NCBI GenBank assembly: GCA_039680605.1
Contig: JBDKTA010000027.1
Span: forward strand, 1-64,000
Direction of reading: 5' to 3'
DNA length: 64,000 bases
Source: Planctomycetaceae bacterium
GTDB lineage: Bacteria > Planctomycetota > Phycisphaerae > SM23-33
Shown here: piece by piece, positions 17,858 to 55,813 of the stretch
How the letters are laid out: every line of letters begins with the position of its first letter
How positions within the stretch are numbered: the stretch's first letter is position 1
The notes under the pieces: model-generated
What the model was told of the DNA's origin: nothing
Databases searched by the model: none
Seen by the model: only the letters and a program-made list of their open reading frames with translations
Position numbers and translations under genes: made by a program

Positions 17858-17957
17858 GGATGATTGGATGATTGGATGGTTGGATGGTTGGATGGTTGGG
17901 TACATGACCAGAGTCTTGTTTTTTCATCCATCCACCCATCCATTCATCCACGCATCC
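17858..17957. repeat. GGATGG/CCATCC inverted low-complexity element
   Basis: Runs of GGATGATT and GGATGGTT on the left face CATCCATCCACC-type runs on the right, so the transcript could fold into a long imperfect hairpin. It fills the gap between the DUF6785 stop (17850) and the esterase gene. Similar elements occur at 22808-22869 and inside 29368-29542. Confidence 0.85.
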
Positions 17958-27842: not shown

Positions 27843-27946
27843 ATTTCCAATTTCCAATTGGCAATTTCCAATTGAAGAGCATTCGTAGGGCGATGGGCGG
27901 ACTATCTGTTGTTCAATTGGAAATTGAAAATCGGAAATTGGAAATG
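27843..27946. repeat. AATTTCC-family inverted element
   Basis: Left-arm units ATTTCCAATT face right-arm units AATTGGAAAT, around a centre containing TGTTGTTCAATTG. It begins two bases past the NtrC-type gene's TGA on that strand and ends about 60 bases before the fusion gene. A second member lies at 30978-31072. Confidence 0.88.
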
Positions 27947-27948
27947 TT

Positions 27949-29361
27949 TCACTCGATCCCCAGCTCGCGGATTTTTTTCCGCAGGGTGTTGCGGTGCAGG
28001 CCCAGCAGTTGAGCGGCGTCGGACTGGTTGCCCTGGCACTGATCGAGGGCGCGGCGGATGACGGCGGCCTCGACCGGTTCGATGGCGGCGCGATACAGAT
28101 CGCCCGCTCGGGCGTCGAGGGATTTGACGAAGGTCTCGGGCGAGCTACATGGCGACCTGCCTGCCGGCAGGCAGGCCCGCTCTTGCGTGTCGCCATGCCA
28201 CCCATCTCTCAGGGTCTGGGGCAGGTGTTCGAGCAGGATCGGTCCGGCGCCGGCAAGGGCGACGGCGTGCTCGATGGCGTTCTTGAGTTCCCGCACGTTT
28301 CCGGGCCAGGGGTAAGCCTCGAGCGCCGCGGCGGCTGCGGCGTCGAGACCTTGGGAGGCTCCGCCGTTGGCGCGGGCGGCGATGAAATGCCTCGCCAGGG
28401 GCAGGATGTCTCCCGCTCGCTGGGCGAGGGTGGGCAGTTCGATCCGCATGACCGCCAGGCGGTAGTACAAGTCGGGGCGGAAGCGTCCAGCCGCGATGGC
28501 GGCTTCGAGGTCACGATTGGTCGCGGCGATGACTCGCACGTTGAGGCTGATGGGTTTGACGGAGCCGACGCGTTCGATGGTCTGGCAGTCGAGCACGCGC
28601 AGCAGCTTGACCTGCGTTTCGGCGGGCAACTCCCCCACTTCGTCCAGGAAGAGCGTGCCGCTGTCTGCCGCTTCGAAGCGCCCCGCACGGTCGGCGTCGG
28701 CGCCGGTGAAGGCGCCTCGCACGTGGCCGAACAGCTCGCTCTCGACCAGCGGCTGGGGTAGGGCGCCGCAGTTGACAGCCACAAACGGCCCGCTGCCGCG
28801 GCGGCTGTGCGTGTGGATCGCCCGGGCGACGAGTTCCTTGCCCGTTCCGGTGGCGCCCAGGATGAGCACCGCGCCGTCGGCGGCGGCCACCAGCGCCACG
28901 CGCTTGTAGACATCCTGCATGGCCGGGGATGAACCGACCATGGCGCTGACCGGGCCGTCATGCACGACCGGCGGCTGCGGCGCGCGGCGCGAATCGAGCG
29001 CCCGCTGGGCCAGTTCGGCCGAGCGGTCCAGGTCGACCGGCTTGACGAGGTACTCGAACGCCTTGCCCCGCACCGCCCGGGTGACGGTCTCAAGCGTGCC
29101 ATAGGCGGTCATCACGATCACCCGCGCGGCCGGGTCGTCTTTCAGCAGCGACTCCAGCACATCCAGCCCGCTGCCGTCGGGCAGGCGCACATCGACAAAC
29201 ACCACGTCGGCCGGCGCGTCGCGATACGCTGCCAGCCCTCCAGCGGCTGTCGACGCCACGCGGACGCACCACCCCCGCCGCGAGAAGAACCGCTCGAATG
29301 CAAAGCAGATCGACTCTTCGTCGTCGATGATCAGCAGCGTCTTGTCGGCGTTTTGCTGCAT
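27949..29361 (-). CDS. NtrC-family sigma-54-dependent response regulator
   Basis: This 470-residue regulator activates sigma-54 promoters. The receiver domain (1-125) has the acidic pair DDEE, the phosphoacceptor Asp in VFVDVRLPDG, MTAYG and the Lys in LVKP. The AAA+ domain (about 150-385) has Walker A GATGTGKE, the sigma-54 contact loop GAFTGAD and Walker B LFLDEVGELP. The C-terminal Fis-type helix-turn-helix (about 428-470) contains NQSDAAQLLGLHRNTLRKKI. The linker at residues 389-405 is encoded by a palindromic repeat (28148-28197). The kinase at 29505-30971 precedes it on the same strand, separated by a nested repeat that may supply its weak ribosome binding site (GGTGA). It is the likely partner of that kinase. 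Confidence 0.95.
   Translation of the reverse strand: MQQNADKTLLIIDDEESICFAFERFFSRRGWCVRVASTAAGGLAAYRDAPADVVFVDVRLPDGSGLDVLESLLKDDPAARVIVMTAYGTLETVTRAVRGKAFEYLVKPVDLDRSAELAQRALDSRRAPQPPVVHDGPVSAMVGSSPAMQDVYKRVALVAAADGAVLILGATGTGKELVARAIHTHSRRGSGPFVAVNCGALPQPLVESELFGHVRGAFTGADADRAGRFEAADSGTLFLDEVGELPAETQVKLLRVLDCQTIERVGSVKPISLNVRVIAATNRDLEAAIAAGRFRPDLYYRLAVMRIELPTLAQRAGDILPLARHFIAARANGGASQGLDAAAAAALEAYPWPGNVRELKNAIEHAVALAGAGPILLEHLPQTLRDGWHGDTQERACLPAGRSPCSSPETFVKSLDARAGDLYRAAIEPVEAAVIRRALDQCQGNQSDAAQLLGLHRNTLRKKIRELGIE
28148..28197. repeat. Nested palindrome inside the NtrC-type coding sequence
   Basis: Outer arms CATGGCGAC (28148-28156) and GTCGCCATG (28189-28197) enclose a perfect 20-bp palindrome centred on CCGG (28156-28175). 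It encodes the linker residues HGD...ACLPAGR in frame between the AAA+ and DNA-binding domains, where an insertion would be tolerated. Confidence 0.8.
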
Positions 29362-29367
29362 TCTATT

Positions 29368-29542
29368 TCACCGCAGAGGTCGCAGAGATCGCCGAGAGGA
29401 AGAGGAGGAGGTTGGATGATTGGATGGAAGGATGGTTGGATGGATGATTCTCCACCCATCCACCCATCCACTCATCCATTCATCCCTTCATCCCTTCATC
29501 CTCTTCATCTCTTCTCTGCGTTCTCCGCGATCTCTGCGGTGA
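29368..29542. repeat. Nested inverted element between kinase and regulator genes
   Basis: The outer arms, TCACCGCAGAGG...GCAGAGATCGC and GCGATCTCTGCGGTGA, face each other. Inside them is a GGATGG/CCATCC element of the kind seen at 17858 and 22808. The outer right arm overlaps the last dozen codons of the kinase gene; the outer left arm ends seven bases before the regulator start. Confidence 0.88.
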
Positions 29543-30971
29543 GATCTCCCGGAAGCTCGAACCAGAACTCCGTGCCCGTTCCGGCAGGGGACGGATTATA
29601 GCCGATGCGCCCGCCGTAGCGGATGACGATCCCGCGGCAGACGTAGAGGCCCAGGCCCGCTCCGTCGCTGCGCGTCGAGACGAAGGGGTCGAAGATATCC
29701 TGCCCGGCGGCGACGACCCCCTGCCCGGTGTCGATCACGCTCAGCCGCGTCGCGCGGCCGCTTTTCGCCAGCGACAGCGTGAGCCTTCCGCCGGCGGGCA
29801 TAGCGGCCATCGCGTTGAGCACGAGATTCATGATGACCTGGCGCATGTGTCCGCTGTCGGCACGCACGGCAGGGGCCAACGTGTCATAGCGGCGCGTCAC
29901 CTCGATGCCCGCGTGTCCGCAGCGGCTTTGCAGCAGCTCGGCGACGGAGTCGGCCGGTTCGATCAGGCTGATCGGCGCCAGGGCAGCCAGGGCCTTGGCG
30001 TCGAGCGGTCCCTGCGCCTGGGCGGTCGCCAGGCCCATGAGTTCCTGGATGTACAGGTCCAGGCGTTCGATCTCGCGGCGGATTAGGGCAGCACTGCGGT
30101 CGTCGATGTTGTGCCGCGCCAGTTCGTCCTGCAACACCCGCACGTTCATGGCGATGCCCGAGAGTGGGTTGCGGATCTCATGCACCACCGAGGCGGCCAG
30201 CTTGCCCAGCGTCGCCAGGCGCTGCGAGCGGGCCAGGCTTTCGCGGGCCTGGCGGAGGCGCTCCAGCAGATGGTCGAAGGATTCGGCCAGTCTCACCAGT
30301 TCCGCCGGACCCTTGGCCATTCCAGAGGACATGGCGGCTGAGGAACGGCCGCCTGACAGGGGCGCCTCGTTATCGGCGGCGGCGGCCATTCGGTCCATCT
30401 GGGCGGCCAGACGACGGATCGGACGCGTCAGCGTCATCGACAAGGTCACCGCCAGCAGCGTGGCGGCGCCGATAGCCGGCAGCGTCGCCACGGCCATCCG
30501 ACGCGCCGCGTCGGCCTTGGCGGCGGCAAGCTGCTCAGCGGGCACGAGCAGATACAGCCGCGCCTGTTCGGCCTTGCCGTCGGGCCTCAACCGCTCGATG
30601 CGTCCGGTGCCCAGGTGGTAGGCGTCGGCGCCGAGTGTGACGGGCCCCTGCTCGGGCGCGCCGCGGCGCAGCAAGGTCTGCAGGGCCGAGGTTTCCTGCG
30701 GGCGCAGCGACGAGCCCAGCACCGCTCCGCCGTGCCCGACGGCCACCGCGTCGGCGCCGTAGATCTGCTTGAGGTGGTTCATGAGCGTGTCGCTCAGGGG
30801 CAGGTTCATGCTCGACAGGAGCCGGCAGGTGCTGTCGGCGACATCCACCAGCAGGCGTTTCTCGATGGCGTTCTGGGCCACGACGACAGCCCCCCACCCC
30901 GCCGCCAGCGCCACCGCCAGCACCAGCAGGTTGAGCGTCACGATCATGCGCGTTCGGATAGAAATCGCCAT
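29505..30971 (-). CDS. Membrane sensor histidine kinase
   Basis: The product has 488 residues if started at ATG 30971; an earlier ATG (30992) lies inside the AATTTCC repeat and is less likely. The N-terminus has one membrane helix (LNLLVLAVALAAGWGAVVV), an extracytoplasmic sensing region to about residue 165, and a second helix (LPAIGAATLLAVTLSMTL). A HAMP-like linker follows. The kinase core shows the H-box HEIRNPLSG, N-box LVLNAMAAMPAGG, and G-boxes DTGQGV and GAGLGLYVCRGI. It is NtrB-like in its core and should phosphorylate the adjacent NtrC-type regulator. Its last residues (TAEIAENAEKR) are encoded by a repeat arm shared with the nested element, so the original C-terminus may have been altered. 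Confidence 0.93.
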   Translation of the reverse strand: MAISIRTRMIVTLNLLVLAVALAAGWGAVVVAQNAIEKRLLVDVADSTCRLLSSMNLPLSDTLMNHLKQIYGADAVAVGHGGAVLGSSLRPQETSALQTLLRRGAPEQGPVTLGADAYHLGTGRIERLRPDGKAEQARLYLLVPAEQLAAAKADAARRMAVATLPAIGAATLLAVTLSMTLTRPIRRLAAQMDRMAAAADNEAPLSGGRSSAAMSSGMAKGPAELVRLAESFDHLLERLRQARESLARSQRLATLGKLAASVVHEIRNPLSGIAMNVRVLQDELARHNIDDRSAALIRREIERLDLYIQELMGLATAQAQGPLDAKALAALAPISLIEPADSVAELLQSRCGHAGIEVTRRYDTLAPAVRADSGHMRQVIMNLVLNAMAAMPAGGRLTLSLAKSGRATRLSVIDTGQGVVAAGQDIFDPFVSTRSDGAGLGLYVCRGIVIRYGGRIGYNPSPAGTGTEFWFELPGDLTAEIAENAEKR

Positions 30972-30977
30972 CGGGAC

Positions 30978-31072
30978 ATTTCCAATTTCCAATTTTCAAT
31001 TTCCAATTTGCCTGAACGCCCGCTTGGGCATCTTGTTGTTCAATTGCAAATTGGAAATTGGCAATTGGAAAT
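30978..31072. repeat. AATTTCC-family inverted element
   Basis: Arms at 30978-31010 and 31041-31072 face each other, built from ATTTCCAATT units and their complement. The centre contains TTGTTGTTCAATTG, shared with the copy at 27843-27946. On the minus strand the element starts at the TGA of the hydrolase gene and ends seven bases before the kinase start. Confidence 0.88.
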
Positions 31073-55571: not shown

Positions 55572-55687
55572 CCCTGTGGTCCTGTCAGCAGAATGGGAAA
55601 GAGGCGATATTAGCGGCCCCGCCCCGCCCGAGCAACAGCGGATTGCACTTCATTTGTACGTCAACGGTTTCATCAGCGGCCTGTATT

Positions 55688-55810
55688 GTTGGGCCACAGA
55701 GACACAGAGAACACAGAGACAGATTGGCAATAGAGACAACAAGGAAGTGAAGTTGCTTCTGCTGTTTCAATAATTCCAACTCTGTGTTCTCTGTGCCTCT
55801 GTGGCCCAAC
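55688..55810. repeat. CACAGAG-family inverted element
   Basis: GTTGGGCCACAGAGACACAG (from 55688) faces its complement ending GAGGCCCAAC-type sequence at 55810; 31 of 32 arm positions pair. The centre holds GTTGCTTC and a short AT-rich stretch. It lies between divergent purL and GH51 genes and ends four bases before a promoter. Confidence 0.92.
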
Positions 55811-55813
55811 ATC

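Follow-up and report, generated by a model that had tools for sequence, protein, structure and literature searches.

REPINs are short inverted hairpin doublets, mostly intergenic, which occur in hundreds of copies per genome; they are associated with a chromosomal gene that has the same repeats on either side, the copies elsewhere being non-autonomous (PMC3116915). MITEs, ERIC/RU and QMITE elements are likewise small and palindromic; they overlap the 3' ends of genes, to which they add C-terminal residues, and since QMITE2 contains a REP that serves as insertion target, the nesting of such elements is already known (PMC2759123, PMC5896051). The Rpn (YhgA-like) proteins are small nuclease-like PD-(D/E)XK proteins that have been connected with the mobilisation or recombination of DNA (PMC5350276, PMC10327210). 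The hairpin described here resembles the first two systems in the respects just given; the likeness to Rpn concerns GxxExxY, a protein whose genes lie between arms of the same kind.

It lies in a window of 64,000 nucleotides (the whole stretch of DNA that was analysed) from a Planctomycetaceae bacterium, our source genome G000. The original prediction made on this window described one repeat family nested inside another and overlapping two genes. The arrangement itself is confirmed and its interpretation supported in part; what the prediction had missed is that the outer arms are also the arms of elements carrying a GxxExxY gene.

A nested hairpin between a kinase and a regulator gene

The locus is composed of the following features (coordinates in the window, strand, description):

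27949–29361, minus: NtrC-type sigma-54 response regulator gene, downstream of the element
29365–29400, plus: outer left arm, TTTCAC followed by CGCAGAGGT, CGCAGAGAT and CGCCGAG; three 9-bp units, core 29372–29396
29368–29372, minus: GGTGA at the outer end of the left arm, candidate Shine-Dalgarno, 6 nt ahead of the regulator ATG
29414–29443, plus: inner left array of GGATGRNN units, 8-bp period
29452–29501, minus: inner right array of complementary GGATGRNN units
29505–29540, minus: kinase-tail codons TAEIAENAEKR and TGA stop, within element DNA, absent from relatives
29505–30971, minus: histidine kinase gene (HAMP, HisKA, HATPase_c), upstream of the element
29510–29545, minus: outer right arm, TCTCAC followed by CGCAGAGAT, CGCGGAGAA and CGCAGAG; core 29514–29538

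The outer arms are 36 nt each, imperfect (83% complementary) and 109 nt apart. Arms and arrays together confirm the predicted arrangement, i.e. CGCAGAG-type outer arms around a full GGATG-type hairpin between the kinase and the regulator. Folded as single-stranded DNA the element reaches -55 kcal/mol, where shuffles give -28.2 ± 3.8 (z -7.1), and the transcript strand folded as RNA gives a z of -8.5; in both cases the fold is more stable than that of every shuffle. A search against Rfam returned generic miRNA-precursor matches only, below the gathering thresholds. The best reading of the feature is a gene-less hairpin element with a second, GGATG-type hairpin in its loop.

The end of the kinase is encoded by the repeat, as predicted: the 11 residues TAEIAENAEKR (29508–29540) and the TGA (29505–29507) all lie within the right arm or its inner extension. 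On the other side the left arm is indeed close ahead of the regulator start, at a spacing of six bases and not seven: GGTGA (29368–29372) is six before the ATG (29361–29359). A start further upstream is excluded because an in-frame TGA sits inside GGTGA itself. The prediction also held that the two-component pair relies on repeat DNA. The pair does carry repeat DNA, whereas dependence is not demonstrated, since the tail lies beyond HATPase_c, which ends at residue 481 of 495.

Comparison with relatives without the element, which had been proposed as the check, bears the prediction out: neither the kinase tail nor the regulator leader seen here is present in them. In six relatives (G056, G033, G030, G018, G031, G025) the kinase stops 2–20 residues past FWFELP; with respect to this stop the regulator begins at -4 to +60 nt, with no hairpin. 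These relatives lack the insert, yet are too diverged to give the exact element ends at the empty site.

Both effects recur elsewhere in the genome. An unrelated HemA-like protein (element C21:16485–16630 of the genome sample described below) ends in DLTAENAENAEN, which an arm encodes in the frame that is also used for the kinase tail. At least three other genes begin 4–7 nt past an arm-end GGTGA; the genes with this arrangement include the regulator, a sulfatase, a YacP-like protein and a gene in L003, these product names being taken from sequence starts only. Arm-end GGTGA is a plausible candidate for the ribosome-binding site of the regulator. The locus illustrates how an element can alter a two-component pair: the kinase acquires a new C-terminus and the regulator, probably, a new signal for the start of translation, through which expression might be affected.

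Other repeats are found in the window. Hairpins of another family, with 7-bp ATTTCCA/TGGAAAT units, lie at 27843–27945, just past the regulator stop, and at 30978–31072, just ahead of the kinase start, so that all three junctions of the kinase-regulator operon carry repeats. The longest kinase open reading frame would start at 30992 (TTG), within another repeat. A three-unit CACAGAG-type hairpin with 97% complementary arms and GGGC ends is located at 55687–55811, and a GGATG-type hairpin free of outer CGCNGAG arms at 17858–17957.

The outer arm module and recurrent nesting

The outer arm has a fixed modular make-up, in which TTCAC is followed by three 9-bp CGCNGAGNN units; the source genome has 295 exact three-unit copies. 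Aligned arms are conserved inward from TTCAC and the signal drops just outside, which marks a sharp module boundary. In an 849-kb sample (about 16% of the genome, from unevenly chosen contigs), runs of three CGCNGAGNN units occur 78 times, runs of two 12 times and runs of four or more never; 38 of 41 neighbouring arm pairs are convergent. Exact matches to CGCNGAGNNCGCNGAG number 643 genome-wide, against 7 for the reversed control, and triple GGATGR units 272, against 0 in the control. Among 397 genomes of the class the 295 three-unit arms are the top count; at least one such arm is present in 110, with a patchy distribution, including among close relatives, and control counts near zero.

The interiors between the arms vary: spacers of about 18–52 nt, an interior of ~112 nt (family X, see below), GGATG or GGAAT arrays and several other hairpins. 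Placed, approximately, against genes called by a simple procedure, most elements in gaps between codirectional genes are closer to the stop codon before them than to the start codon that follows; divergent gene pairs flank just 3 of the 35 intergenic elements. The window element has terminal inverted repeats, small size, many copies and no coding capacity, as in MITEs. No target-site duplication was seen at the window element, nor at the other gene-less elements scanned outside family X.

A test for nesting elsewhere in the genome had also been proposed, and such nesting does occur. GGA-type arrays (a looser pattern) are enclosed by outer hairpins at 10 of their 41 noncoding sites; the share of intergenic length taken up by hairpin interiors would predict 1.1, which makes the enrichment about nine-fold (P = 1e-7); for strict GGATG arrays the figure is 4 of 19 (P = 0.0015), the other 15 being free of outer hairpins. 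This excess over expectation indicates that nesting is real and recurrent. Since the two families occur apart and combine far above chance, the composite is modular. The further proposal of at least two insertion rounds is not established, as the number and order of steps are unreadable from one locus. Two other Planctomycetota MAGs show a half-composite pattern; L071 has the full hairpin, in which the inner unit is a different one.

Slippage or template switching within one palindrome, rather than insertion of one family into another, could also produce such composites. Both families are short-period, arms differ mostly at variable positions, and at these positions the arms of one element are more alike than those of other elements (0.59 vs 0.45), all of which fits. 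However, outer runs never exceed three units, inner arrays stand free at most of their sites, and several unrelated sequence families are found in the same loop. We consider this origin quite unlikely.

GxxExxY genes between periodic inverted arms

GxxExxY (TIGR04256/PF13366) is an uncharacterised nuclease-like, PD-(D/E)XK-like protein. Locus L199, retrieved for its arms, held a GxxExxY-like sequence between them, and all four GxxExxY genes of the source genome are bracketed by periodic inverted arms:

L204 (G000): GxxExxY gene between TTTCACCGCGGAGATCGCAGAGACCGCAGAG arms, the arm family of the window
L205 (G000): GxxExxY gene between weaker arms, score only 36
L206 (G000): GxxExxY gene between GGGATTA-type repeats
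L207 (G000): GxxExxY gene between arms of CACGAATGT units

Matched inverted arms, typically of three 8–10-bp units, flank 51 of 60 GxxExxY loci of Planctomycetota, nine having no detectable arms. At a matched-inverted-flank score of at least 33 the counts are 29 of 33 for the first set and 22 of 27 for the second, which was chosen after the pattern was noticed; both sets are the best-scoring loci and not random ones. For comparison, 0 of 540 shuffles reach 33 and 0.3% of 2,000 random positions of the source genome reach 34. Scores of one locus against the flank of another were excluded as a control, because the resemblance of the arms to each other inflates them. Arms share self-identity at lags of 8–10 bp.

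Arms without a gene follow the local gene-bearing type: within G354 (ACCACGAAG) and G063 (ACCATGAAG) the gene-less arms match those of the local GxxExxY locus. At the scale of genomes, GxxExxY is encoded in 32 of the 35 with at least 10 CGCNGAG arms, against 215 of the 362 others (P = 8e-5). Outside Planctomycetota, in a sample of nine loci drawn from plasmid records and one viral contig, arms are present at five (Gemmatimonadota, Bacteroidota, Alphaproteobacteria and the viral contig): Gemmatirosa, Bernardetia, Sphingomonas (between fabD and fabG), Bacteroides finegoldii (beside radA) and L243. The flank score detected none at the other four, those of Treponema, Persicobacter, Fusobacteria and Prevotella. 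GxxExxY is absent from 50,697 phage records.

In the genus of L222 a gene-bearing element lies between groEL and dnaJ in G066 and G049, while three congeners (G040, G272, G257) have only a short gap there. The same gap holds unrelated inserts in G397 and G078, and may therefore merely tolerate insertions instead of being specifically targeted; these inserts are a macro-domain-like open reading frame in L263 (G397) and another small insert in L260 (G078).

The GxxExxY orthologues of G066 and G049 give a dN/dS of about 0.07, which indicates that the protein is under purifying selection; the near-saturation of synonymous sites makes this value a rough one. Across 14 sequences E24, D64, E74-x-K76 and Q88 are invariant, residues consistent with a PD-(D/E)XK enzyme, and 12 of the 14 show weak similarity to Cas4. 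A profile search of the PDB yielded marginal RelE matches only, and the single-sequence structure model (mean pLDDT 39.5) was too poor for use.

These data also bear on a non-mobile explanation, in which the arms are host elements (stabilisers of mRNA 3' ends, or terminators) and GxxExxY is a host processor of cruciforms, e.g. like a junction-resolving nuclease. Such a function would suit elements that follow shortly after stop codons, seldom separate divergent genes and form a very stable RNA hairpin, together with a protein that is constrained and missing from the phage records searched. Against it stand a copy number that is patchy among close relatives, arm sequences that differ between genomes, a gene-bearing copy present or absent between congeners, and the lack of the window element in relatives. 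We regard it as markedly improbable.

Candidate movers and described systems

Some elements would suit a known type of transposase. Family X is an element of about 204 bp, CCCGGATATTTCAC...CAGTTTTCGGG, which contains the outer arms:

Family X copies: G000:C4:104418, 213151, 270487 and others (L133–L146, L150, L153–L165)

Most copies have matching 4-bp YTAR flanks, usually CTAR (CTAA/CTAA in four, CTAG/CTAG in others), as expected of an IS5-group insertion, and the genome has three DDE_Tnp_1 genes. An ordinary IS5-type DDE transposase may thus be possible for the family-X subset. Extended to all the hairpins, moved in trans, this explanation would make GxxExxY a passenger, or cargo picked up by the arms. 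But no transposase gene was found bracketed by arms, the DDE loci lack arm cores, and none of the three DDE_Tnp_1 genes has family-X ends. Moreover, family X is one subset and the other gene-less elements show no duplication, whereas GxxExxY is bracketed at most loci of the phylum regardless of arm sequence. As a general mover the DDE transposase therefore seems unlikely. DDE loci were also considered as the arm-bearing source and rejected, being without arms. In the sample no family-X ends enclosed a long interior such as an autonomous copy would have.

The elements might instead be REPINs moved by Y1 (RAYT) transposases, of which the genome has fifteen Y1_Tnp matches; inverted doublets, intergenic sites near stop codons and folding into hairpins are all REPIN-like traits (PMC3116915). 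Among genes other than GxxExxY, only Y1-transposase loci have matched arms, of different sequence and without the 9-bp period. The scanned RAYT loci are flanked by other GC-rich inverted repeats and not by three-unit 9-bp arms, which makes this origin very improbable. Ten Y1_Tnp loci were checked for RAYT as mover and the candidate was rejected: a single arm, at a distance of about 950 nt, was present at only two of them, and the other GC-rich repeats flank some. In L061, L063 and L064 RAYT genes lie between GC-rich inverted repeats of another design.

We favour GxxExxY itself, and think it rather probable that the window element belongs, as a gene-less MITE/REPIN-like copy, to a hairpin family associated with GxxExxY, in which the gene-bearing copies are autonomous and the protein acts on the arms. 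By analogy with REPIN/RAYT we infer that GxxExxY mobilises the arms: it would recognise their unit repeats and nick or cut there. Hairpins without the gene would be non-autonomous derivatives spreading into short intergenic gaps just past stop codons, and their loop may tolerate or attract other hairpin families, giving rise to nesting. In the window an element would have landed between the kinase and the regulator and swapped the kinase stop for arm-coded residues, the same insertion placing GGTGA in a Shine-Dalgarno position.

That arms of this kind bracket GxxExxY genes across several phyla suggests an unrecognised class of mobile DNA. Tentatively, this class could be widespread and undescribed: a PD-(D/E)XK-like GxxExxY nuclease would recognise arms of three 8–10-bp units, and hundreds of gene-less derivatives would reshape gene ends, supply tails and ribosome-binding sites and nest in each other. 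We found no published description of GxxExxY-associated hairpins in the open-access literature searched, whose text gave no match to the arm unit sequences either. Three papers there mention GxxExxY or PF13366, at least one of them in passing. GxxExxY is annotated in many genomes without a known role, for which the bracketing arms and gene-less copies now offer a testable function; the link would also provide a source for short-period hairpin repeats of bacterial genomes.

Disparities nevertheless appear with each described system. From Rpn, GxxExxY is set apart by family assignment, Rpn being PF04754, and later work treats Rpn as toxin-antitoxin defence (PMC5350276, PMC10327210). MITEs, ERIC/RU and QMITE differ from the window family in that the latter has periodic unit arms, gene-bearing copies that carry GxxExxY, and no parent insertion sequence that we could find. 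In REPIN/RAYT the REP is 16–25 nt, while each arm here has three direct units of 8–10 bp; the RAYTs of the source genome carry other flanking repeats; and the partner of the window family is a PD-(D/E)XK-like GxxExxY protein, where RAYT is a Y1 HUH transposase.
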